The position numbers and the translations under genes are program-made. This document shows positions 9,061 to 37,711 of a stretch of DNA of 64,000 bases, piece by piece (positions within the stretch are counted from its first letter, which is position 1; every line of letters begins with the position of its first letter). Below the pieces are notes generated by a model that was given only the letters and a program-made list of their open reading frames with translations, was not told the origin of the DNA and searched no databases. This DNA is from Paraburkholderia sp. (GTDB lineage Bacteria > Pseudomonadota > Gammaproteobacteria > Burkholderiales > Burkholderiaceae). The DNA is taken from positions 186,001 through 250,000 of the forward strand of contig SCRN01000034.1 in the NCBI GenBank assembly GCA_004322045.1, read 5' to 3'.

Positions 9061-10719
9061 TCAGTTCGCCGCATAGCTTTGATTCGCCGTATTCAATACG
9101 ACGGTAAGCAGCCCCGAACTCTCATTTGGTTGACCCGCGCGGACAACCGAATAAATGATGCAGCATTGACCTTGCGTCCCGCCGTCCTTCTTTTGATCCC
9201 AACCTTCGAATGGCGCGACAGGGAAATGGAGCAAGATAGACCCCTTTGTCAAATCCCCCGCGGCAATGGGCGGTAAAACGTTGGCCGGAACCGTAATCGG
9301 CACCCGCAATGCGTCGCTATCGGGCCGGTAGCCGGTCAACACAGCCGTTGCGCTCACGACGTCACCTAATTGAGCGTTCCACGAGGCATCGGGTTGTTTC
9401 AGTTGGACCTGGATAGTCACGGGGCCCTTGCTGAGGGTGGTGTGGTTGATGTGTCCCGCGTACGGGTACAATTCGGGTGCGTCGAGATTTCCGCCGGTCA
9501 ATTGGATGTTGTTGCCCGTGCCGAAAAAACCCCTTATCGTGCTCGCACTGGGCAAGCCGGTCTCCGTGCCGCCGACGACGAACAACATCTCGTTCTTTTG
9601 TCCGCCAGACATCAGGTCGCTATAGGCGAGACTCGCAAGAAACTCGCAAAGCACAGGAGAGCCATCGGCTTTATAGTGATATGGACCCCCGGCAATTTCA
9701 TTATTGACAACCAGGTAGACGTTATCCGTCGGGTGTGCGTTTTTGTAATGGGGGATGGACACGCTCACATAAGGAGGATCTTGAAGTTCATCGAAATTAA
9801 GTGTATCGCCCGTCATCGGGTCGAGAATCCTTGGATAGATATCCTCCAAAGCCTGTGCGCTCTCATTAATATCCATAACGAGAAATGGCCGCGAATATTC
9901 ATATGTCACATTGAAGTCGTACCGCGCCGTGACGCTCTGCGCAATCGGGCCCGTGCTGTCTTTGGCCACGAGATAGAGACTCGCCACGCCGCTCGCATCG
10001 GTCGTCATGCGAACGTAGTAGCCCTGCTGATTGTTATCTTTGACGAAAACCGCATCGGCCGACGGGAGCACGTCTGCCCAGGCGGCTGTGGCGGAAGTGT
10101 AGGCATTCATCAAAGTGCTAAAAAGCCCGAATGACTGATCGCTGCCCTCATGCCACTCGACCACGTAGCCTGGAACCGGATTATTGCCGTCTTTGACGAC
10201 GCACGTGAAGCTCGTGGCGTACTGGGCCGCGGCGGGCGTGAGCTGATCTCCCTGTCCCGAAGGCAGCTCGAGCAGTGTGCTGCTGGGGCCAGAGCAAATG
10301 ATCGTCGGACCGGTCGGCGCGAGCGTGTAGGTCACCGTCGTCGCATCGTCCGGCTTGGCGCCCCCCGTCCATTCGCTACCCGCCATCGCATTCACGACGA
10401 TGGAATTCGACGTATCGGAGTAGTCATGGCGAATAAATAGTTTCGCCGTGCCGGAGGCGTTGCCGGGAGCAATATCGATCGGCACGTTCGTCCATTCAGA
10501 TTGCCCCAAAAGCCCCACGAAATGGCTGCTAAGGCCCTTGCTGCTACCGGAGAAATCGATCGTTGCTCCCGCGGGGATCTTGTTGGATCCCGTCATCGTG
10601 ACAGTTGCTACGATACATAAGCCCTGGTGAGGATAGACTTTCGTCGACGCATCCGGAGTCAGTATGATCGACCCGGCGCCACCGAGATCCTGGCTCGTTC
10701 CTTGTTCACCGTGCGACAT
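9061..10719 (-). CDS. Ig-like multi-domain protein, first gene of the operon
   Basis: A 552-residue hydrophilic protein starting MSHGEQGTSQD at 10719, chosen because GGAGG lies 9 bases upstream; a more distal in-frame start (10794) lacks a site. There is no signal peptide. Beta-rich segments fall at about 15-130 (ATVTMTGSNKIPAGATIDFSG style), 135-290 (Big_1-like, with TTDASGVASLYLVAKD), 300-460 (VSIPHYKNAHPTDNVYLVVN) and 460-552. The end contains GQCCIIYSVV, a vicinal Cys pair in the same strand context as in the next two proteins. Lower GC than the housekeeping genes around suggests transfer. Function unknown; extracellular adhesion or effector-like cargo are possibilities only. Confidence 0.7.
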   Translation of the reverse strand: MSHGEQGTSQDLGGAGSIILTPDASTKVYPHQGLCIVATVTMTGSNKIPAGATIDFSGSSKGLSSHFVGLLGQSEWTNVPIDIAPGNASGTAKLFIRHDYSDTSNSIVVNAMAGSEWTGGAKPDDATTVTYTLAPTGPTIICSGPSSTLLELPSGQGDQLTPAAAQYATSFTCVVKDGNNPVPGYVVEWHEGSDQSFGLFSTLMNAYTSATAAWADVLPSADAVFVKDNNQQGYYVRMTTDASGVASLYLVAKDSTGPIAQSVTARYDFNVTYEYSRPFLVMDINESAQALEDIYPRILDPMTGDTLNFDELQDPPYVSVSIPHYKNAHPTDNVYLVVNNEIAGGPYHYKADGSPVLCEFLASLAYSDLMSGGQKNEMLFVVGGTETGLPSASTIRGFFGTGNNIQLTGGNLDAPELYPYAGHINHTTLSKGPVTIQVQLKQPDASWNAQLGDVVSATAVLTGYRPDSDALRVPITVPANVLPPIAAGDLTKGSILLHFPVAPFEGWDQKKDGGTQGQCCIIYSVVRAGQPNESSGLLTVVLNTANQSYAAN

Positions 10720-11227
10720 GACGATTGCCCTCCAAGAGTGAAAGATATCCGCTTCAGAGAATGAGTTGACGCGTGCCAGGATGGACGCTTTCACTGTCGC
10801 AATACTCTTTCTCGCGGCGCGCAGTGGTTGGAATATTCTCGATATGGGAGTTGAGTGTCAACGCCAGAATTGAGAATTTTCACCCTCGTTATCAATTGAC
10901 GAGATCATTCGCCAACCCCACAATTTCGCGAAATTACCAATTTTTGAGATCGCGTCGAAATAACATCCAATCCATCGGAATCTCAAGGCAACGATCTCGC
11001 TGATATTTGGCGATATTTTCGCCTGAACCAGCGCGATAGCGGCCCCATTCCCACATTTTGAATTTTCATAAGAGCTTCGCGCTGCGTGGTGTTGTAAGGC
11101 ATTCGCAACTCATGCTAGATCGATACATCGGCCAGGTTCCTTTTACACGCCCCAAGGACACCCGTCGCGCCGACGTCGGGCCTTTTATCAAACGCGCTCC
11201 CTCTTTTTTCATTACCGCATTACATCT
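10720..11227. other. AT-rich divergent intergenic region
   Basis: About 500 bases between the leftward Ig-like operon and the rightward autotransporter. The part from about 10800 to 11080 is markedly AT-rich. It contains a perfect 14-bp palindrome (10922-10935) and a smaller hairpin, GGCGA-TATTT-TCGCC, near 11010. An open frame at 10773-11003 has no ribosome-binding site and odd composition and is probably not a gene. The region most likely holds both promoters, and its composition would suit H-NS-type silencing. Confidence 0.55.
10922..10935. promoter_or_regulatory. Perfect 14-bp palindrome, possible operator
   Basis: AATTTCGCGAAATT is exactly self-complementary and lies about 200 bases upstream of the Ig-like operon start and 290 bases upstream of the autotransporter start. 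A dimeric regulator is a plausible binder. No known operator is recognised. Confidence 0.4.
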
Positions 11228-14200
11228 ATGAAAATTCGACGGAAACCGAATTCCCTGAAAGCGAAGCCAGCCAACACGGCAGAGATGGGTGATCGCGACT
11301 GCGTCGCATATTGGGAACCACCGGCTCTGAGCGAACCGTTCGGCTGGCGCGCTTTGCCCGTGCGGCACATCAGGCCGAAACACCGTATGCGCGCTTCAGT
11401 CGCCGCACTCTGCATGGCGGGTGCAATCACGGCGGCCGGAATACCTGCCCCCTCTGTCGCGCAGGTCATCGAGGTAGGTGGCGGTGCGGGTGCGCCTGCG
11501 GCAACTGGCAACGGCGGCGCAGGCGGCGGCAATAACGGTGGCGGTGCGGGCGGTGGTGTCGGGTCGATTGCAGGCCTTGCGGGAACGCTTCAGCAAGGTG
11601 GCGACGGGGCAAGCGCGACGCAGTGCGCCATTACGCCCTCGCGCCCAGGCTGCGGTGGCAAGACGCGCATCATCAATGCGCCCATAAGCGGCTTCGTAAC
11701 GGGAGGATCCGGCATGCAGGGAGGAGCCGGAGTGGGCGGTGGCGGCGGAGGCGCCGGAGCGGTCATCACATCTGGCGACTTGGTACTCGGCCCCCCGGGC
11801 AGCGCGGTGTTGCGCGGCGGCGCAGGCGGCGCGAGCGGCTCGGCAGGCGCCGGGGGCGGCGGCGCGGGACTCGTGTTCATGGGCGGCGTACTGATCGATG
11901 ACGGGAATCATATCTACGGCGGCACGGGTGGCTCCGGCACGGCAACCGCCGCCGGTGGTGGTGGCGGCGCCGGCGTGTTCTTCCAAGGTAAAACGTTCAC
12001 TTTCAACGCGGAAGGCACCTACATAGTCAGGGGGGGCGATGGCGGGCAGTCCGGTGGCAACGGCGGCGCTGGCGTAGTCGCCAGCAGCGACGGCGCGACG
12101 ATTACCAATATCAGCAACAGTATCGGCACCGGCTTCAACGGCGGCACCGGCGCGGCCGGAGCGGGCTCGATCCCGGACGGCAGCGGCGGCGACGGCATCG
12201 ATATTTACGGCAGCAACAACACACTCATCAACCGGGGCCTCATCAATCCCGGCGCTTCGGCAGGGAGCGCGGCACTCGCGATCGGCGTCCATGTTCACGG
12301 CGATGGCAATACCGTCATTGACGCCAATGGCGGGGACTTGGAGGGCGGATGGCGGCTCACGGATCCGACGCAAGCCGCACCGGGCGGTGTCGCGGTCAGG
12401 TTCGACGGCAACGCAAACACGCTCGAACTGCAAGCGGGTTCTATCGTCGACGGCAAGGTCATTGCAGCCGGCGGCGGAAACATCCTCGCGCTCGGCGGCC
12501 CGGCAGACGGCACGTTCGACCTGTCGAAGATCGTCGCATCGCTCGATAACACGTCCAGCGCCGAGCAATACCAAGGTTTCGCAGTCTACGAAAAGACGGG
12601 CCTCGGCACTTGGACGGTCACCGGCCGCGTGGGCGACAGCCACCCCTGGGCCATCGAGCAAAGCACGCTCAAGCTAGGCGCCACCGGCGATCTCTCGCCG
12701 GCAAGCAACATCGGCGTCGACGCCACGTTCGATGTGTCCGGCGTCACGGCCAGCAGCACGGCCATTCAAAGCCTATCGGGCGCTTCGACGGGCACCGTCG
12801 TACTCGGGAATAAGACACTCGTCATCACCAACGGTCAGGGCGGAAGCACCCCTGTCGATGCGGGCAACTTCGCCGGCAACGTCTCGGGCGCCGGCGGCGT
12901 CGAGATGGCGGGCGGGACGCAAGTCTTCTCGGGCATCAATACGTACGAAGGCGGCACACTTCTGCGCGGCGGCACGCTGTCCGTATCGACGGACGCCAAT
13001 CTTGGCACAGGCGCCCTCGCGTTCAACGGCGGGACACTCGAGAACACCGCGGCATTTCAGTCATCACGCGCTATTGCACTGAACAGCGGCGGCGGCACAC
13101 TGCAAACCAATGCCGCACTCACACTTGCCGGCACGATCTCCGGTGCGGGCGGCTTGTCGAAAACCGGATCCGGCACGCTGACGCTAACCGGCGCAGGCAC
13201 GTATTCGGGGCCCACTACGATCTCGGGCGGCACGTTGGCGATCGGCAACGGCTTCGATAGCTCGTTCGTGAGCGACATCGTCGATAACGCCACCCTTCAG
13301 TTCAACGACAGCCGGGCGTTTTCCTATGGCGGCGCCATCAGCGGCGGGGGCAGCATCGTGCAAAGCGGCGCGGGCGTCGTTACGCTTTCCGGCAACAGCG
13401 GCAGCTTTACCGGCGCGACGACAGTGAACGCAGGCACCCTTTCCGTCGACGGCACGCTCGGCGGCGCCGTGACCGTCAACGGCGGCGCGCTCAAAGGCAC
13501 GGGCACGATCGCGGGCAACACGACGGTCGGCGCCGGAACGCTCGCGGGGCGACAAGGCGACGTGCTCAATTTCGGCGGCAACCTCGCCTTGTCGAGCAAC
13601 TCGTCGGTGAACGCCTCGCTCGGCACGCCGGATGGATCGGCGGGACTGTTCAACGTGGCGGGCAATCTCACGCTGGCGGGCGCGCTCAATGTGACCGACC
13701 TCGGCGGCTTCGGCCCGGGCCTTTATCGCTTGTTCGACTATGCGGGCAATCTGACCAACAACGGCTTGCAGGTCAACCGCGTGCCCGCCGGCATCAGTAC
13801 GAGCGACTTGTCCGTGCAGACGTCGATCGCTCACCAGGTCAATCTCGTCAACACCGGCGGCGCAGCGGTCAACTTCTGGGACGGGGGCAATGCCGCGAAC
13901 CACAACAACGGCGCAGTGGATGGCGGCAACGGCATCTGGAACACCGCCAACGACAATTGGACGAACGCGAGCGGTGCGATCAATGCGCCCTGGCAAGCGG
14001 GGCAGTTCGCGGTGTTCGCCGCCCAAGCGGGAACCGTGACAGTCGATGACTCTGCAGGCGCCGTCTCGGTCGCCGGCATGCAGTTCGCCACGGACGGCTA
14101 CCGGCTCGAAGGCGACGCGATCACGCTCGCCGATCCGCAGACGATCATCCGCGTCGGCACAGGAGGCGACGCCTTCAGCCGCGGCATCACCGCGACGATC

Positions 14201-29261: not shown

Positions 29262-29638
29262 GGTCAACCGAGGCCAACCGCTTCGTGGAATCTCCCAATA
29301 CGGCGGATCGACGGTTTGCTTGATCTTCCAACCCGGCGTCATTGCTCATTTCGTTCCGCAACCGCCGTTCGACGACACGACCCGACCCGCCCCGACCGGT
29401 CGAGGTCAACGCCCCTCCTGGCGACAGCGCGCTAATCCATCGCGTCTTTTTCTTCTCTGATCTATTCTTTGCGTGAGCGGCGACGATACGCACGATAAAC
29501 GCCCGCCATTGGCACGCGCTCGTTTATCCAGCACAATTGGCCCAAGCACGCATAAAGCGCGCCAGGCAATCAGCAGCCAGCGTCACCTATTTCGGCCCCG
29601 GCCTGTTCAGGCGGCACGGGAATTGGACCCTCCGCAGG
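29262..29638. other. Intergenic region before the CHASE kinase
   Basis: About 375 bases. The frame of the following kinase is open back to 29537, but the DNA there lacks a ribosome-binding site. I see no gene, repeat or operator. It probably carries the promoter of the kinase operon. Confidence 0.45.
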
Positions 29639-31834
29639 ATGCGCATGCCCGCAGCAGGAAACACGCCTTCATCAGCCAAGCCGGCCGCCGCACGCAAGGA
29701 CGGCGGCACGCCGCTGCGCGCACCGTTGCTGGCAGCCGCGCTGACGGGCGCCATTTTCCTCGCCGCGGCCCTCGTCTCCGCGTTGATCGTGCGCGATCAC
29801 CTGCTCGACGTGGCGCAGGCGAACTTCGATGCGCGGGCCGCGCACGTCACTTCCGACATCCGGCGCGAGCTATCGCTGTGCTCCGAGTTGCTGCGAGGCG
29901 CCAGCGGCCTCATCGTCTCCCAAGCGCAGTCGAGCGGGGACGGTAAGCCGTCGGCGGAAGTCTGGGACCGGTATATCTCGCGCCTGGACTTGGACGACAC
30001 GCCGCCCTGCGTACGCACATTGGGTTACGCCGATGCATCGCCGGCCGCGATCGCGGCGGCGCCGGGGGCCGCGAACGAGGGCGCGACGACCGGTCCGCTC
30101 GCTCATTCGGTGCTGATGTGGCCGCCGCGCGGGGAAGCGGCCGATGGCGTGGACCTCGGCGTTAGCGACGCGACGCGCGCCGCCTTGATGCGCGCCGCCA
30201 ACAGCGGCGACGTGGCGATGTCGGTCCGGCCGCTGGCACGCGAAGGCGCAAGTGGGACGGAGCCGGCCGAGAGCCAGACGCGCGCGCGCGTCGATCTCTA
30301 TTTGCCCGTCTACCGGGTGGCGCCGCCGCCCGTGCTCGTGCCGGCGCGTCGCGCCGCGCTGCTCGGTTTCGTCCTCGCGCGCCTGGACACGGAATATTTG
30401 TTCGCGAGCATCGCGGCGCATGAACCCAATATGCAAATGCGCGTCTCGGCCGGCCAGCCGCCCATTGCGCTTTACCCTCCGGGCGCCGCCGTTTCGGGCC
30501 AAAACGCGCGCAGCCAGCTTTTTCGCCATACCGATACGCTGCGCGTCGGCGGCCAACCGCTGTCGCTCGACTACGCGACGAGCGATCCCGCGCTGAAAGA
30601 CTCGGCCAATTTCAGCAGCAGCGCGATCTTGTCCGCAGGCTTCGCGGCCGCGCTCATTACCGGCGCGGCAGTGTTCGTGTTTATGCGCAAACGCGGCATG
30701 ACCCTCGCAGAAGCCGGATTGGCGCGTTCTCGCTCGTCCTTGAACGAAGCACGGATGATGGCGATTTTTCACTCGTCGGGCGAAGCGATCATCACGCTCG
30801 ACGAACGACAGCGAATCGTGTTGTTCAACCCCAGCGCGGAACAAGTGTTTCGCTGCTCCGCGATGGACGCGATAGGCACGTCGATCGACCGCTTCATTCC
30901 CGCCCGCTTTCGCGAGGTGCACCGCAAGCATGTCGAGCGTTTCGGCGAGACGGGCGTGACCCAACGCAAGATGGGCCGGCAGCAGTTGGTGCTGATGGGG
31001 CTGCGGGCCGATGGCGAAGAGTTTCCGCTCGAAGCGTCGATTGCACAGGTGGGCGACGGCCAGGGCGGCAAGCTGTTCGCTGTCATGCTGCGTGATGTCA
31101 CCGAGCGCATTCAGGCCGAGGAGGCCCTGAAGGCGTCGCGCCAGGAGTTGCGCGAGCTGTCGGCCAACCTGCAGAACGTTCGCGAAGACGAAAAAACCCG
31201 CATCGCAAGGGAGCTCCACGACGATCTGGGGCAGCAATTGACCGCGCTGAAGATGGATTTGTCATTGGTCGAGCAATCCCTGGCCGAGGTCCCGTCGGCG
31301 CCCCCGCCCGTGCTCGCGCAACTGCAGGGGATGCGGCGGCTCATCGATTCGACGGTGGGCTCGGTGCGGCGCATCGCGGCCGATTTGCGCCCTGTCATGC
31401 TCGACGATCTAGGCTTGCTGCCCGCGATCGATTGGTTGCTCAACGACTTCACGACGCGCTACGGCATCGACATCGAGCGCCGCATCGAGCCCGGCAATAC
31501 GAGCTTTTCGAAGAGCGGCGCCACGACGATATTTCGCATCGTCCAGGAAGCGTTGACGAACGTGGCGCGGCACGCCGAAGCCACACGCGTGTCGATTTCG
31601 CTCTTCAGTGAAGACTGCCACTGCACGGTGCGCATCGCCGACAACGGGCACGGGGCGCGCGATGCGCAAGCAACCGAAGGACATGGGGAGAAATCCTTCG
31701 GGTTGCTCGGGATACGGGAACGCGTGCACATCTTGGGCGGGTCGGTTTCGATCGATACGGCGCTCGGCCGCGGTTTCGCGTTGACGGTGCGCATTCCGCT
31801 GGCCGCAATACAACAGGAAGAGGCCCTGCAATGA
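29639..31834 (+). CDS. Membrane CHASE-PAS sensor histidine kinase (HisKA_3)
   Basis: About 731 residues. One transmembrane helix (about 30-50) and a second (about 330-355) flank a CHASE-like extracytoplasmic sensor domain; a PAS domain (about 380-500, ending FAVMLRDVTERI), HisKA_3 with His527 in RIARELHDDLGQQ, and HATPase (EALTNVARHA, GLLGIRERV) follow. ATGs at 29639 and 29645 are both possible starts; an upstream TTG at 29537 seems unlikely. The stop overlaps the LuxR-type regulator start (ATGA), so the pair is a classical two-component system. Ligand unknown; CHASE domains bind small extracellular molecules. Confidence 0.93.
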   Translation: MRMPAAGNTPSSAKPAAARKDGGTPLRAPLLAAALTGAIFLAAALVSALIVRDHLLDVAQANFDARAAHVTSDIRRELSLCSELLRGASGLIVSQAQSSGDGKPSAEVWDRYISRLDLDDTPPCVRTLGYADASPAAIAAAPGAANEGATTGPLAHSVLMWPPRGEAADGVDLGVSDATRAALMRAANSGDVAMSVRPLAREGASGTEPAESQTRARVDLYLPVYRVAPPPVLVPARRAALLGFVLARLDTEYLFASIAAHEPNMQMRVSAGQPPIALYPPGAAVSGQNARSQLFRHTDTLRVGGQPLSLDYATSDPALKDSANFSSSAILSAGFAAALITGAAVFVFMRKRGMTLAEAGLARSRSSLNEARMMAIFHSSGEAIITLDERQRIVLFNPSAEQVFRCSAMDAIGTSIDRFIPARFREVHRKHVERFGETGVTQRKMGRQQLVLMGLRADGEEFPLEASIAQVGDGQGGKLFAVMLRDVTERIQAEEALKASRQELRELSANLQNVREDEKTRIARELHDDLGQQLTALKMDLSLVEQSLAEVPSAPPPVLAQLQGMRRLIDSTVGSVRRIAADLRPVMLDDLGLLPAIDWLLNDFTTRYGIDIERRIEPGNTSFSKSGATTIFRIVQEALTNVARHAEATRVSISLFSEDCHCTVRIADNGHGARDAQATEGHGEKSFGLLGIRERVHILGGSVSIDTALGRGFALTVRIPLAAIQQEEALQ

Positions 31835-32478
31835 CAAAGGTACTTTTGGCTGACGACCACGCGCTCGTGCGCGATGGCCTGCGCCATATTCTCGAAGGCA
31901 CGAGCGGCTTCGAGGTCGTCGGAGAGGCATACGATGGGCCCACCACCATCGCGCTGGTGCGCAGCACGCCGGCGGACGTTCTCGTGCTCGATCTGTCGAT
32001 GCCGGGGCGCAACGGCATCGAGCTCGTCAAGCAAATCAAGGATGAGCTGCCGACGCTGCGCGTGCTCGTCTTGACGATGCATGCCGAGCAACAATACGCC
32101 GTACGCGCGTTCAAAGCGGGCGCATCGGGCTATTTGACCAAGGAAAGCGCGAGCAAGGAGCTCGTATCGGCGCTGAGCAAAATTTCGGCCGGCGGCGTGT
32201 ACGTGAGCTTGTCGATGGCGGAACGGCTCGCGCAAAGCTTGAACGAGCCCACCGACATGCTGCCGCATCAACGGTTGTCGGATCGCGAATTCGACGTGTT
32301 CCGGCGCATCGCGTCGGGTCAGACGATCAGCGAGATCGCGCATGAACTGTGCGTCAGCGCAAAAACGGTCAGCACCTACAAGACGCGCATTCTAGAAAAG
32401 ATGCAGATGCCGCACGAAGCGGCCCTCGTCCGCTATGCGATTCAGCACAAGCTGTTCGAAGACAGCGAGGATTTGTAA
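31831..32478 (+). CDS. NarL/FixJ-type (LuxR HTH) response regulator
   Basis: A 215-residue regulator overlapping the upstream kinase by 4 bases. The receiver has Asp-Asp in LLADDH, phospho-acceptor Asp54 (LVLDLSMPG), Thr82 and Lys104. A LuxR-type HTH follows at about 150-210 (LSDREFDVFRRIASG, EIAHELCVSAKTVSTYK). It is the presumed output of the CHASE kinase and acts as a DNA-binding dimer. Target genes are not indicated; nearby genes on the same strand include the receiver-only protein at 32640. Confidence 0.95.
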   Translation: MTKVLLADDHALVRDGLRHILEGTSGFEVVGEAYDGPTTIALVRSTPADVLVLDLSMPGRNGIELVKQIKDELPTLRVLVLTMHAEQQYAVRAFKAGASGYLTKESASKELVSALSKISAGGVYVSLSMAERLAQSLNEPTDMLPHQRLSDREFDVFRRIASGQTISEIAHELCVSAKTVSTYKTRILEKMQMPHEAALVRYAIQHKLFEDSEDL

Positions 32479-32639
32479 CGATCCGTTACCTCGCGCCCGC
32501 CGTTCGTTGCGCGAAGAGCCACTACACGGGGCCGTGGCGTTTCGTGTAGGCAAAGGATGACAAGCGCCTTCCGCATGACTTACAACACATTCCTACCGGG
32601 ACGATATTTATTTGGCCGAGCGCTGACGATACTGTGCTC

Positions 32640-33050
32640 ATGAAATCGAGCATCCTCTCACCGCTAAGAGTGTTCGTCGTCGACGAGTCAACCCTCGTGC
32701 GCGAACGTCTCACCCAGCATATCGGCCCCGATGGCGCCGCATGCATCGTCGGCGAAGCCGAGGACGTCGAGATGGCGCTGCAAGGTATAGCCGATACCGA
32801 TGCGGAGGCTGTCGTCCTCGATCTGCGCCTGATCGACAGCAACGGGATGGACCTGCTCCACGCGTTGCGCGATCGAACCGATCCCATTGTCACGATCGTG
32901 CTGACCAACTACGCGTCTCCGGTATTTCGCGAGGCGAGCGTAACCGCCGGCGCCGATTACTTCTTCGACAAGACGACGGAATTCGATCTGGCGATGGAAA
33001 CGATCGCCCGTTTGGCGCGCGAAAAGGCGCACGGCGCGGGGCATCGTTAA
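32640..33050 (+). CDS. Receiver-only response regulator (second copy)
   Basis: A 136-residue single receiver with Asp61 (VVLDLRL), Thr89 (IVLTNY) and Lys111 (FFDKTTEF), plus the acidic pair in VVDEST. There is no output domain. It resembles the protein at 27930 in length and in the DK-x-(T/S)-EF end. An upstream GTG at 32634 is in frame, but the ATG at 32640 gives the better N-terminus. It follows the LuxR-type regulator by 161 bases, so it may be a separate transcript. Its role could be cross-talk or a phosphate sink for one of the two kinases. Confidence 0.88.
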   Translation: MKSSILSPLRVFVVDESTLVRERLTQHIGPDGAACIVGEAEDVEMALQGIADTDAEAVVLDLRLIDSNGMDLLHALRDRTDPIVTIVLTNYASPVFREASVTAGADYFFDKTTEFDLAMETIARLAREKAHGAGHR

Positions 33051-33081: not shown

Positions 33082-33399
33082 TCATGCGCCGCGGCGCACA
33101 AAATCGCTGCCTCGATGGGTCAGTTCGCGTTCGGCATAGTCGAACGCCGCGCGCACCGCCGCCTCCGGATCCTTGTCGGCACAATGCGGCAATGGGATAA
33201 ATTGCTTCTCGGGCGTCACGATGTCAAGACGCGCGTCGTAGTAGAGCCCATTCGGCCCGCGCATGGCTTCGATCGCGAGATGGCAATGGCTCACGTGCGC
33301 TGCGAAGCGCATGAGTCGCAGGAGTTGGACGCCGGCCTCGGCTTCTATTCGCGCCGCCCCAGGAAAGCCGACGTACACGATTTGCATGCCGATGCCCAT
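33082..33399 (-). CDS. Short HPF/RaiA-like ribosome-associated protein
   Basis: A 105-residue protein that follows the hibernation-factor (HPF/RaiA) pattern: a first strand MQIVYVGF, a helix with Glu/Ala, a strand HCHLAIEAMR, then YYDARLDIVTPEKQF and a long C-terminal helix with Glu and Arg (AAVRAAFDYAERELTHR). It is about the size of short HPF. It may bind the 30S subunit under starvation. Start 33399 has GGTGAGG just upstream; an internal ATG at 33387 is possible. The match is by fold pattern and is moderate. Confidence 0.65.
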   Translation of the reverse strand: MGIGMQIVYVGFPGAARIEAEAGVQLLRLMRFAAHVSHCHLAIEAMRGPNGLYYDARLDIVTPEKQFIPLPHCADKDPEAAVRAAFDYAERELTHRGSDFVRRGA

Positions 33400-33653: not shown

Positions 33654-34289
33654 CTAGGTCGGCTCGCCGCTCACTAGAGACGCCATCGGACGAACGCAGT
33701 ATGGCGCGGTATCAGCTTTGGCTTCCGGCTTCACGCAGTATGCCTGTGCAGCGCCCTTCGCTTCCGGCTTCACACAATACGCCTGCGCATCGCCGTTCGC
33801 TTCCGGCTTCACGCAGTACGCCTGCGCATCGCCCTTCGCTTTCGGCTTCACGCAATACGCCTGAGCATCGCCCATCACCGCAGGCCTCACGCAGTAGGCG
33901 GTGCCTTCGCCGAACTCATACGCGACCAATTCACTGCTGTGCGCCGTCAGTGCGAGATGACGGGCCTCGTCCTCACCGCCGTCGATGCCGCTATAGGGAT
34001 CGTGATGAATCATATAGCCGAAGATCCGTTCGCAGTCGGCGCTGTAACGTTGCGTGTCCAGGATATGCATGTGCCAGAATTCATCCACCTCCTTGCTCGG
34101 CACGATCGGCGCATCAGGATATTTCGCCGCCAACTTGAGGAATTGCCGGTATCCCGCTTCCGCGCGCTCGATCGTGCGCAATGCCAGAACGCCATCGTGC
34201 CGATGCATGAGCTTAGCCTTGATCCGGCCGAAGTCGAGCGCGTCGATGGCGTTGTACATATCGGTAACACCCCGTTTCGTGGTCTCCAT
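33654..34289 (-). CDS. GRDP/DUF1399-like protein with six YCV(K/R)P repeats
   Basis: A 211-residue protein. Residues 10-125 follow the GRDP (DUF1399) pattern, with a His/Cys-rich core VDEFWHMHILDTQRYS, then CERIF and HHDP (W72, H73, H75, C86, H95, H96) that could bind metal. Residues 129-201 are six tandem units of about 13 residues, each with the core YCV(K/R)P; the typical unit is AQAYCVKPEAKGD. This exact tandem is unusual and looks like a repeat core peptide or a metal-binding tail. The start at 34289 is preceded by AAGGAAG. It has no signal peptide. Function unknown; no modifying enzyme is seen nearby. Confidence 0.75.
   Translation of the reverse strand: METTKRGVTDMYNAIDALDFGRIKAKLMHRHDGVLALRTIERAEAGYRQFLKLAAKYPDAPIVPSKEVDEFWHMHILDTQRYSADCERIFGYMIHHDPYSGIDGGEDEARHLALTAHSSELVAYEFGEGTAYCVRPAVMGDAQAYCVKPKAKGDAQAYCVKPEANGDAQAYCVKPEAKGAAQAYCVKPEAKADTAPYCVRPMASLVSGEPT
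33687..33905 (-). repeat. Six-unit tandem repeat (about 39 bp) encoding YCV(K/R)P
   Basis: Coding tandem repeat inside the GRDP-like gene. The middle four units are nearly identical in DNA and protein; the first and last are diverged (AYCVRPAVMGD, PYCVRPMASL), as expected for repeats that grow by slippage or unequal exchange at the centre. Confidence 0.85.
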
Positions 34290-34300
34290 GATGCTTCCTT

Positions 34301-37300
34301 CTAGGCATGGTGGGAGCCCTGTGGACGAATGACGTCGGCTCCCGTTGTTGACGATCTCGTAGGCTCGAGACCGTAATCCGCCACACGTCCAAGAAAATTT
34401 TCGACGTCGTCGGCGGGAATGGGACGGCTGAAGAAGTAACCCTGCACTTCGTCGCAGCCTTCCTTACGGAGAAAATCGATCTGCGCTTGCGTCTCGGCGC
34501 CTTCGGCGATCACGGATAGGCCCAAGCTATGGCCGAGCGCAATCACCGCGCTCGTTATTTGCGTGTCGCTATGGCTGTCGGGCACATTGCGGATGAACGA
34601 TCGATCGATCTTGACGGTATCGATCGGGAAGCGATTGAGATACGCGAGGGACGAATAGCCCGTGCCGAAATCGTCGATCGAGAGGCGCACGCCGGTGCGT
34701 TTGATCGCGGCAAGCCAGCGCACCGCTTGTTCCGGATGACGCATCACCATGCTCTCGGTCAGTTCGAGTTCGAGAAACGCGCCGGGCAACCCCGCGTCCT
34801 CGAGCGCCTCCAGAATGCTTTCATGCAGCCGCGGGTCGGCGAATTGCCGCGCCGACAAATTCACCGCGACATGGATCGGCCCCATCCCCCTAGCCCGCCA
34901 CTGCGCCCCCTGCCGGCAGGCCTCGCGCAGCACCCAAGCGCCGATCGGTACGATCGCGCCGGTTTCCTCGGCAACCGGGATGAAATCGACGGGAGAAACG
35001 GCCCCTAGCACCGGACTGTTCCAGCGCAACAATGCCTCCACCCCCGTGCAATGGTTCGAGCGCAAATCCACGCGCGGCTGATAGACGAGCGCGAATTCGC
35101 CGTTGTCGACGGCATGCCGCAATTGCGCTTCCATCTCCACGCGCCGATGCAACGACATGCTCATCTGCCGCACATACATCTGATACGTATTCTTGCCGCG
35201 CTGTTTTGCCCCATACATCGCCATATCGGCGTGCTTGAGCAAGGTCTGGGCATCGTCGCCATCGCCAGGGAACGAACTCACGCCAATGCTGGCGCTGACT
35301 TGGAGTTGCGAACCGCCGATCGTGAACGGTTGCGCGAGCGCCGCCTGAATCTCGTCGATCGTCTCGATGACGATCGTCAAACCATCGCTTGCCTGCTTGA
35401 CGAGCACGACGAACTCGTCACCGCCCAGGCGAGCGATCATGTCGCTGTGTGTCAATGCGTCTTGCAAGCGCGCCACCACCGCGCGCAACAGCAAATCGCC
35501 GACGTTGTGCCCCAGCGAATCGTTGACGTCCTTGAATCGATCCAGATCGATGAAGAGCACGTGCAATGCGGTGGCGTCCGCCCGCGCATGCGCGAGGAGC
35601 GCATCCAAATGTTCGCGGAACATTAAGCGATTGGGCAGGCCCGTCAATGCATCGTGCGTCGCCAGGAAATGCAAGTTCTCTTCGGCTTGCCGGCGCTGCA
35701 GGAAGTGACTCATCTGGCCGACAATGGAGCGCGCCATCACCAACGCCTGCGGTTCGACATGGCGTCGTTCGCGCGAATAAAACTCGGCCACACCGACCAC
35801 GACCGAGCCCATTCGCAATGCGAACGAGAAGGTGGTGGCAATGCCGGCATCGGCGAGCCACCCCGTCGTGTCGGCCGTGCGCAGCGCCGTCCAACTCGGC
35901 GCAGGCGGAGCCGCCTCCTCGCTCGTCGCACTGGGCGCAAGGGCCAGCAGACACGTTTCCAGTTCGTTATCGAGCGCGGTCGATGTGGCGCACAGCAATT
36001 GCTTGACGCCCGACGGCGTCGGGCGGAACGCACCGCCGGCCCAGCCCATGCCCTGTACGATCGATTCGATCAGATGCCGGCATACGTCGAACTCGTTGCC
36101 GGCCGTCGCCAGATAGAGCGTGAACGTATGCTCCAATTCTCTTGCTCGCTCGATCGACTTCTGTTTCGTGATTTCGAGGGCGGTGCCGCGCAGCCGAAGC
36201 GATCCGGCGGCGCCGTAGGCATGGCCGATCACGCGCAGCCACCCGCGCCGGCCATGACGGGACCGATAGCGGCACTCGATCTCGAACACATCGCGGGTCG
36301 CTAACGTCGATCTCGCGCGCTCCGTCAGCAAACGCCGATCCGGTGCATCGATCGTTCGCAGCAGCGCCCTGACGGTTTGCGCCTGCCGCGCCGAGCCGAC
36401 CAAGCGCGCCATCTCTTTGGATAGATGCGCCTGGCCCTCATCGACATCGACGAGCCAATCGCCGAGATGCGCAATGCGCTGCGCCTCGGCGCGTGCCTCC
36501 TCGCTTTCGCGCAGATCGCGCGTCATTTGATCGGCCATCTTGACCGCGCGCACTCTCGAAGTGGACAACGCATACGCCAAAACCGCCAGCAACGCGCTGA
36601 TCAAGAGCCCGGCGATCAACGCGAGGTTGGGCAGGACCCGCTGTGTGCCGCTGAGCGCGCCGAGATCGGCCGAAAATTCGATCACCCAGCGTCGCCCGGC
36701 AAACGGTTGCTCCGCGCGCCGTTCTAGCCTATGCGGCTTGGCCTCGCGAACCGCCTGCGGCGCGAACGGGGCGATCGGCGCTCCGACGGCGGCCGCGCGC
36801 ATCGGAGCGTGCGAGAGCCCGGCGACAGCCGCGGGGTGCCGGCTCGCCACGCCGTTCACACTGTCGTACAGCAGCGACTCCTTCGACGGCGGTGTGGCCG
36901 GGCCGCGCAAACTGCCGGCGTCGTAGATCTTGAACTTGATGACGCGCAGCGTCTGGGCGCTGAGCAACCCGTCCATCATATCGTTCACGCGGATTCCAGC
37001 GCCCACGGACCCGACATAGGCACGCCGGCGCTGCTCGACCGTTGACGCTCTCATCCCCTTGCGATACACGGGCATGCGCATCGCCAATCCGACGAACTGC
37101 GCACCACGCTCGTCCAGAATCAACCGGCCGCTGCTGACCGGTTCGCCCGTATCACGTAACGTTTCCATTGCCGCGCGCCGCTGCGGCGTCGCATCCATAT
37201 CGAGGCCGACCGCCTCGCGATTGACACCGAGCGGCTCGAGGTAGGTCAGGACGTCATAGCCATCGCGGACGCCGGGCGGGTGAATCGAAAAATCGATGCC

Positions 37301-37711
37301 CGCTTGCTGTAAAATCGCATCCTTGCGCTGGGCGGCGATAAACGTGCCCGCATCGGCTGCGCGAACGAAAAACGCATAATTCAAGGTCTGAAATCCGGGA
37401 TATCGTCCCCGTAAATCGAGGCCATCGACAAAATCGTGAAATTCCTGCCGCGTCACCTGGGCGTCTTCGCCGAATAAAGCGCGCATCGTGACGAGCACAT
37501 CCGTATAGAGGCGCACGCGAACGGAAATTTGCTGCTCGACGCTGCGAGAATCGTTTTCGAACCGCAGGCGCGCCTCGCGCTCCACGAATTGCTGGCTCAG
37601 CGAATAAACGGTGACGGTGGCAGCTAACGCGAGCGTGAGTACGCCGAGCGCGAAACCCTGCGCAAACCAATCGCGATAGGCCCGCCTCATACGTTCGAAG
37701 AAAGCTCGCAC
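34301..37711 (-). CDS. CHASE-PAS-GAF diguanylate cyclase/phosphodiesterase
   Basis: A 1136-residue c-di-GMP enzyme. Two transmembrane helices (about 15-35 and 355-375) enclose a CHASE sensor; a PAS domain and a GAF-like segment (about 540-690) follow. The GGDEF domain has an intact RLGGDEF at about 760, and the EAL domain has EALLRW at about 892, NLSARQF, IDDFGTGYSSL and KIDRSF. Both active sites look complete, so it could make or degrade c-di-GMP, probably one of them regulated. I use the GTG at 37711, which sits 7 bases after AAGGG. It lies 11 bases downstream of the GRDP-like gene, but both point leftward so the enzyme comes first. Confidence 0.93.
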   Translation of the reverse strand: MRAFFERMRRAYRDWFAQGFALGVLTLALAATVTVYSLSQQFVEREARLRFENDSRSVEQQISVRVRLYTDVLVTMRALFGEDAQVTRQEFHDFVDGLDLRGRYPGFQTLNYAFFVRAADAGTFIAAQRKDAILQQAGIDFSIHPPGVRDGYDVLTYLEPLGVNREAVGLDMDATPQRRAAMETLRDTGEPVSSGRLILDERGAQFVGLAMRMPVYRKGMRASTVEQRRRAYVGSVGAGIRVNDMMDGLLSAQTLRVIKFKIYDAGSLRGPATPPSKESLLYDSVNGVASRHPAAVAGLSHAPMRAAAVGAPIAPFAPQAVREAKPHRLERRAEQPFAGRRWVIEFSADLGALSGTQRVLPNLALIAGLLISALLAVLAYALSTSRVRAVKMADQMTRDLRESEEARAEAQRIAHLGDWLVDVDEGQAHLSKEMARLVGSARQAQTVRALLRTIDAPDRRLLTERARSTLATRDVFEIECRYRSRHGRRGWLRVIGHAYGAAGSLRLRGTALEITKQKSIERARELEHTFTLYLATAGNEFDVCRHLIESIVQGMGWAGGAFRPTPSGVKQLLCATSTALDNELETCLLALAPSATSEEAAPPAPSWTALRTADTTGWLADAGIATTFSFALRMGSVVVGVAEFYSRERRHVEPQALVMARSIVGQMSHFLQRRQAEENLHFLATHDALTGLPNRLMFREHLDALLAHARADATALHVLFIDLDRFKDVNDSLGHNVGDLLLRAVVARLQDALTHSDMIARLGGDEFVVLVKQASDGLTIVIETIDEIQAALAQPFTIGGSQLQVSASIGVSSFPGDGDDAQTLLKHADMAMYGAKQRGKNTYQMYVRQMSMSLHRRVEMEAQLRHAVDNGEFALVYQPRVDLRSNHCTGVEALLRWNSPVLGAVSPVDFIPVAEETGAIVPIGAWVLREACRQGAQWRARGMGPIHVAVNLSARQFADPRLHESILEALEDAGLPGAFLELELTESMVMRHPEQAVRWLAAIKRTGVRLSIDDFGTGYSSLAYLNRFPIDTVKIDRSFIRNVPDSHSDTQITSAVIALGHSLGLSVIAEGAETQAQIDFLRKEGCDEVQGYFFSRPIPADDVENFLGRVADYGLEPTRSSTTGADVIRPQGSHHA

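Follow-up and report, generated by a model that had tools for sequence, protein, structure and literature searches.

Tandem Cys-containing peptide units encoded beside a CHASE sensor gene in Burkholderiales

Described systems and the array protein of the window

Yeast alpha-factor-type precursors carry tandem, near-identical short peptides separated by variable spacers, with copy numbers that vary among relatives; they have a signal peptide, known proteases and a G-protein-coupled receptor, and no Cys core. In MNIO/YcaO RiPP precursors a leader-like domain is followed by Cys cores. On the receptor side, the accessible portions of the literature state that a ligand is known for CHASE receptors in few cases only (PMC1863423), that CHASE domains bind peptides and cytokinin (PMC5845226), and that in Dictyostelium the peptide SDF-2, which is generated from AcbA, acts on the CHASE receptor kinase DhkA (PMC7316887, PMC1863423).

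The locus described here lies in a 64 kb stretch of DNA (the window) and encodes an array of short peptide units. Such arrays are like the alpha-factor-type precursors in their tandem near-identical peptides, variable spacers and varying copy number, and they may be like AcbA/SDF-2 and DhkA, as portrayed in the accessible parts of those papers, in that a peptide from a larger protein would be perceived by a CHASE receptor. They differ from the latter system in that it is eukaryotic and its precursor is an acyl-CoA-binding protein. AcbA is leaderless and helical; each protein of that system yields a single peptide, there are no tandem units, and the genes are not linked. From the MNIO/YcaO RiPP precursors the arrays differ in that their conserved neighbour is a sensor and neither MNIO nor YcaO is obligatory. 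We found nothing in the open-access literature in which a GRDP-like domain is joined with precursor peptides. The papers found on DUF1399/GRDP deal mostly with plants, together with one fungus and a plant-microbe review, and their accessible text names no array or sensor. Similarly, nothing like the array-sensor pair was found in the accessible text of open-access work on CHASE ligands, CHASE-GGDEF/EAL proteins, Burkholderia and Variovorax operons and tandem precursors; one CHASE2 operon (PMC5192318) was judged, from the part available, to be irrelevant to the pair.

The open reading frame with six 13-residue units that drew attention to the window was placed exactly, its YC pairs starting at residues 132, 145, 158, 171, 184 and 197 and thus always 13 apart (Table 1). 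Its DNA has a 39-base period (4.5 copies, 85% matches) and is one of only two arrays found by TRF in the 64 kb. The WHMH and HHD pattern attributed to the N-terminal domain is indeed present, as FWHMH and HHDP, and the likeness to GRDP proteins stands as a distant one only: the PF07173 match reaches 18.3 bits and misses the gathering cut-off of 22.7, which the tail-less relatives L045 and L211 exceed with 25.0 and 23.9 bits, respectively. Judged by its sequence, the domain is therefore a distant relative of the GRDP-like/DUF1399 family (PF07173; plant AtGRDP2). A 50-sequence alignment revealed conserved residues D69, W72, H73, H75, D78, T79, Y82, D85, C86, H95 and H96. AlphaFold2 predicts six helices for this domain, with a mean pLDDT of 92 over residues 1-131 and values below 50 over residues 130-211. 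Structural homology searches returned no PDB match with E under 0.001 for the whole model or the domain, nor was there a credible sequence match to go with them, and no signal peptide or membrane/hydrophobic segment was seen on reading the protein sequence.

Table 1. Features of the array locus in the 64 kb window
Feature	Coordinates	Strand	Evidence
Array protein, 211 aa: GRDP-like domain and six A-Y-C-V-[KR]-P units	33654..34289	-	ORF translation
GRDP-like helical domain, residues 1-128	33906..34289	-	PF07173 sub-threshold; 50-sequence alignment; AlphaFold2
Six 13-residue units, residues 131-202, predicted disordered	33684..33899	-	TRF, unit positions, pLDDT
CHASE-GGDEF-EAL membrane sensor, 1136 aa, 11 bp upstream of array gene	34301..37711	-	Pfam
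CHASE domain, residues 85-282, of array-linked type, motifs AMRMPVY and RRRAYVGSVGAG	36866..37459	-	Pfam, tree, alignment
Second CHASE protein, PAS-HisKA_3 kinase; CHASE not of array-linked type; module membership uncertain	29537..31834	+	
LuxR-type response regulator after second CHASE kinase; membership uncertain	31831..32478	+	Pfam
Single-domain response regulator; membership uncertain	32634..33050	+	Pfam

The window's own genome contains a single match to the array protein. Since 11 of 11 searched genomes of the genus Trinickia carry it, with 5-16 units, it is not a chance open reading frame; the closest of the best 80 of 92 relatives is from Trinickia sp. Y13 (92% over the domain), and the organism of the window is therefore probably a Trinickia or a near relative. 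A further frame of 105 aa (33082-33399), placed between array gene and regulators, has a weak match to Ribosomal_S30AE (13.4 bits against a cut-off of 23.7).

Unit arrays in related bacteria

We collected loci for the best 80 of 92 relatives from one scan of genome contigs. Burkholderiales relatives share the architecture of domain plus array, with 2-22 units, so that the variable number of homogenised units expected from the window alone is borne out in the genus and beyond it. The YCV(K/R)P core, which had been called invariant, is so in the window protein but not in the genus, where YCVTS and YCIRQ occur beside YCV[KR]P. Indeed, lineages differ in their unit letters while the design is constant: for example, units read YCARMAKAEEPA in Cupriavidus, YCA[IV]TPGAEAKPA in Paraburkholderia, AWCSLEAGKP in Variovorax, AWCSVEP in Aquabacterium, AFCSIEP in Rhizobacter and AFCVREP in Caldimonas, YCGA units are found in Herbaspirillum and one Noviherbaspirillum, and a further Burkholderiales family has the forms AFCSSPG, AFCGIVKPP, AYCAGPH and AWCSAPS. 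The conserved core is thus Ala-aromatic-Cys-small residue, where the aromatic is Tyr, Trp or Phe.

Across 62 arrays with 500 units, we observed tandem near-identical short peptides with variable linkers, the arrangement of a multi-copy peptide pheromone precursor. An aromatic residue precedes 500 of the 505 Cys in the array spans, and Ala stands before the aromatic in 95% when weighted by array; because units were defined by the aromatic-Cys pair, conservation of these two positions is partly circular, while that of the next position is not. A single aromatic type is used in 60 of the 62 arrays; for one of the mixed arrays (L065) the count includes a Phe-Cys pair from the end of the domain. 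Tyr predominates in 33 arrays, Trp in 23 and Phe in six. Unit spacing ranges from 7 to 26 and the linkers are free. Random loss of Cys, which would have spoken against a precursor, is therefore not the pattern, although a few degenerate units have lost it (e.g. YFAR, FFSV). The part of the original prediction that concerned a repeat-precursor-like design, in which a His/Cys-bearing GRDP-like domain is followed by regular and homogenised units with Cys, holds. A solenoid, that is, a tandem structural repeat, was rejected because the spacing varies, and the predicted pLDDT is below 50.

To examine selection we compared codons between neighbouring units (437 pairs). Silent and replacing changes number 100:1 at the aromatic, 141:0 at Cys and 149:3 at the next residue, as against 186:31 at the Ala before the aromatic and 131:97, 128:80, 144:110 and 71:193 at the following four positions. 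The unit core is thus under purifying selection; since changes at the core positions are almost all silent, the core is kept by selection and not by mere copying.

Scanning the collected locus DNA for aromatic-Cys motifs gave 121 open frames with at least three motifs, of which 13 have no GRDP motif; among these only a fragment in L058 is array-like, and the rest resemble chance or antisense frames. The L058 fragment (9992-11855; Cupriavidus necator UYPR2.512 pSym) is a broken second array copy whose frame stops at the first unit, with further units in a separate frame about 1.3 kb downstream and no CHASE gene within 10 kb; the chromosomal copy of the same strain (L056) has nine units and a CHASE gene. 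In Caldimonas mangrovi the copy without a CHASE neighbour (L080) has no array and the CHASE-linked one (L079) has 12 units. In Variovorax boronicumulans the corresponding numbers are three (L101) and six units (L100). One genome (G452, L159:7742-10135) has two adjoining paralogous array genes, with AYCAGPH and AFCAGPH units, respectively, the aromatic being uniform within each.

Phage or plasmid cargo as the main setting was rejected. The matches include 29 plasmid records, of which H1, H3-H7 and H18 were examined. The one relative on a viral contig has a Ser/Gly/Cys tail, and three phage records match the domain only partially, with 24-44% of the query covered.

Pairing of the array gene with a CHASE sensor gene

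Directly upstream of the array gene in the window is a conserved partner that the original prediction, which looked for one elsewhere, had not named: a CHASE-GGDEF-EAL sensor (Pfam E-values 1.1e-43, 9.6e-50 and 2.7e-76), whose PF03924 match of 149.7 bits against a cut-off of 25 identifies it as a CHASE receptor. We searched the loci of the best 80 of 92 relatives with a CHASE profile built here, and counted a locus as tailed by the mechanical rule of at least two aromatic-Cys motifs after the domain. Of the 57 tailed loci 53 contain a CHASE gene, which in 50 adjoins the array gene directly. None of the 23 others contains one, but only 12 of these 23 extend for 5 kb or more to either side. Repeat-less homologues in the same context, which would have contradicted the precursor idea, were thus absent among these loci. 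The four tailed loci without CHASE comprise L076 (two scattered motifs and no array), L093 (a short contig), L101 (three units) and L114 (two units). In L056, L061 and L072, the three cases not flagged as adjacent, the CHASE part lies in a shortened frame that ends about 1-2.8 kb upstream.

The output of the partner is variable. A GGDEF-EAL frame lies directly upstream in 47 of 58 related loci, with gaps of -14 to +89 bp. In L075, L078, L084 and L089 the partner is a divergent CHASE-PAS-HisKA_3 kinase, and in L074 a CHASE-HisKA_3 kinase downstream of the array gene. A kinase of CHASE-HisKA_3 type also immediately precedes the array gene in 4/4 loci of the further Burkholderiales family, while two tail-less loci of that comparison (L161, L162) have no CHASE partner. 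The kinase-type partners lack GGDEF and EAL, so that what all partners have in common is the CHASE input domain. For a base rate we searched 24 whole genomes, 16 tailed and eight untailed, with PF03924. CHASE genes were present in 22 of them, at 0-6 per genome. The tailed genomes have 1-6 each, and in 16 of 16 one of these is no more than about 3.5 kb away from the array gene. Two CHASE genes were found in the window's genome, and both flank the array gene. The kinase of the second cluster (29537-33050) is present in 7 of 9 Trinickia loci, with a CHASE domain of the unlinked type. The pairing of array gene and CHASE sensor gene is a new finding, and it is very probable that the two products are functionally coupled.

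We built a tree from 48 of 100 collected CHASE domains: 24 linked, 18 unlinked and six from the second kinases of Trinickia loci. All 24 linked domains, from sensors of both outputs, form one group together with one unlinked domain (L200), with a support of 91/94, which falls under the tool's mark of 95 in a tree with long branches. The remaining 17 unlinked domains fall outside this group, as do the six from second kinases. In an alignment of 56 linked (47 with EAL, nine kinase) and 18 unlinked domains, nine positions separate the two sets. Most markedly, linked domains have A126, R128, Y148, S151, G153 and G155, where unlinked ones have mostly V/L, Y/F, L, W/Y, Y and S; this signature, which the window sensor belongs with, is missing in most of the 18 unlinked domains. 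In the RRRAYVGSVGAG motif small residues stand in place of aromatics, an exchange that would fit a changed pocket. Tree and alignment show the array-linked CHASE to be, at the level of sequence, a type of its own, among which outputs have been exchanged.

Co-variation of units and sensors was also examined. The partial Mantel correlation of the units is weak and of similar size for the two parts of the sensor, 0.34 with CHASE and 0.23 with the output domain (45 loci; 0/2000 in a permutation that ignored kinship). Contrasts on the domain tree gave three supported pairs (six on all branches), which agree with the pairing at p = 0.25. The contrast tree has 72 rows and leaves out 18 near-duplicate Variovorax/Cupriavidus loci, L076, L093, three rows without genomic context (L163, L165, L166) and L247-L249; had L247 and L248 been included, they would have spoken against a link to a sensor in every case.

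A comparable pair was found outside this set. On four Azospirillum plasmids and in one further relative, ADCLR units occur together with a distant GRDP domain; counted by eye, there are from 3 to about 17 of them. The aromatic is therefore not universal in arrays. A related kinase gene of the same orientation lies directly upstream in 5/5 of these loci. Two of the kinases were scanned and are HAMP-HisKA-HATPase-receiver proteins with a CHASE8-like periplasmic domain of 22.5 and 25.9 bits, under the cut-off of 27. On the other side of the array, 3/3 scanned loci have an SBP_bac_5 (peptide-binding-type) gene. The AMCGG array of L247 and the ALCVPS array of L248, which are taken to belong to the ADCLR class, have no sensor next to them; the neighbours are SBP_bac_5 and a SET protein in L247, while L248 has a PPDK_N protein and one that resembles papain/C39 with a score under the cut-off.

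Candidate functions and further GRDP-like proteins

We propose that the array protein and the adjoining CHASE sensor may act as one two-gene module. The GRDP-like domain would bear many copies of an Ala-aromatic-Cys-small peptide, joined by flexible linkers. Either within the whole protein or cut free as short peptides, and perhaps with a modified Cys, the units would reach the periplasm or the outside and act there as ligand of the CHASE domain, upon which the sensor would alter c-di-GMP (GGDEF-EAL type) or start a phosphorelay (kinase type). Export, release, Cys modification, binding and the nature of the units as a self-signal are steps that we infer. We put the probability that the array supplies short Cys peptides in many copies, and that the adjoining CHASE receptor senses them, at roughly 40%. 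This function is favoured by the pairing in 53/57 versus 0/23 loci, by CHASE as the element common to both outputs, by selection on the core and by the Azospirillum pair; a multi-copy ligand precursor fits selection confined to the core, uniformity within the protein, a private receptor type and interchangeable output. Arrays that are uniform within a protein and differ between lineages are what one might expect for a lineage-specific signal. It is weakened in that no export signal was seen and no dedicated protease or exporter recognised near the array, by the binding of non-peptide ligands such as cytokinins to CHASE domains, by the 91/94 group support, the weak unit-CHASE correlation and the few contrasts, by L247 and L248, which have no sensor, by the units without CHASE in L101 and L114 and by Cys-less units, and it leaves the role of the conserved GRDP domain unaccounted for.

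The best alternative, which we consider unlikely though well short of negligible, is a thiol tail that stays in the cytoplasm and either binds metal or is attacked by an oxidant or electrophile, while CHASE senses the same stress outside and sensor and responder are co-inherited. This would agree with the missing export signal, with Cys as the most constant residue and with the SBP_bac_5 genes that adjoin the Azospirillum-type arrays, a family that also binds metal complexes. Moreover, of two CHASE4 domains described in the accessible part of one paper, heme is the ligand of one and copper probably that of the other (PMC13277305). Such a thiol buffer would need neither the Ala before the aromatic nor the small residue after Cys, yet both are kept, and it does not call for the single aromatic type that 60 of 62 arrays show. 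A lone Cys every 12-13 residues is also unlike a metallothionein: in place of clustered CxC/CxxC, we found a single Cys per unit at the spacing of 7-26. If the tail did prove to be of this kind, it would still define a new sensor-linked protein family. A multi-core RiPP precursor, with Cys modified by an enzyme encoded elsewhere and a metallophore or signal as product, is compatible with units that act as ligands but in itself quite improbable. A folded leader-like domain before near-identical cores is in its favour, as is the presence of MNIO in 13 of 16 tailed as compared to 3 of 8 untailed genomes. Against it, whole-genome searches did not find MNIO in the tailed genomes G325, G369 and G170 or YcaO in eight of the 16, the window's among them, and neighbours scanned with Pfam (4 + 8 + 4 proteins) are sensors, regulators and a porin. 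An MNIO or YcaO enzyme as obligatory partner was accordingly rejected on these 24 genomes; the original prediction had suggested looking for such genes.

We give still less credence to a structural, adhesive or multivalent binding tail as the output of the c-di-GMP or kinase pathway, for example one cross-linked through Tyr and Cys. Disordered repeats, the 2-22 copies and a GGDEF-EAL gene directly upstream would suit it; it accounts poorly for a shared input domain when the kinase-type partners have no GGDEF or EAL, arrays with Phe or Trp are incapable of Tyr cross-links, and no secretion signal was seen. Least probable of all, and by our estimate very much so, is an ancestral neighbourhood that was inherited with the genes and has no functional meaning. 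The few independent contrasts (three, p = 0.25) would allow it, but the pairing is kept across several Burkholderiales families with orientation varied and outputs exchanged, the linked CHASE domains have their signature, and a parallel pair exists in Azospirillum.

If units as ligands of the CHASE receptor were confirmed, common Gram-negative bacteria that live in soil or with plants would have a gene-encoded peptide signal acting on c-di-GMP or on a phosphorelay. With its many peptide copies and its association with one CHASE type, the array gene would offer a candidate ligand for a whole receptor group. More tentatively, these systems could belong to a previously undescribed kind of bacterial signalling, with multi-copy Ala-X-Cys peptide precursors, a linked periplasmic receptor of CHASE or CHASE8 type, interchangeable output and lineage-specific cores (YCV, YCA, WCS, FCS and YCG, with DCLR in Azospirillum).

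GRDP-like domains were also found in other settings. The small proteins of L224, L226 and L242 end in a single unit-like piece (such as PAMCIS, SSICW or SAICSR) and may represent arrays with just one unit. Tail-less proteins with C-termini like HACHAPTSCACRTPGACK occur in L073, L103, L104, L111, L115, L119 and L163, including Moraxellaceae, Oceanobacter and Ghiorsea. In L148, L167-L170, L233 and L235-L238 the domain stands at the start of longer proteins with GCGGCGGGD-type tails, which we take to resemble TIGR04222 proteins. At three loci (L045:5905-7700, L212:4929-6704, L162:7065-7831) a short tail-less GRDP gene directly precedes that of a multi-membrane-span protein of about 443 aa, which in Halomonas is MatE-like below cut-off and lies beside luxR/luxI-type genes, and in Maritalea has no Pfam match; the L162 fragments are alike by eye. 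Finally, on a plasmid of Azospirillum ramasamyi (L211:29-12354) a tail-less GRDP gene is located in an island with genes for a DNA cytosine methyltransferase, DUF2357, Vsr, a methyltransferase, a TauD-like protein and a large UvrA/ABC-like ATPase; by its gene content this island may serve defence or modification.
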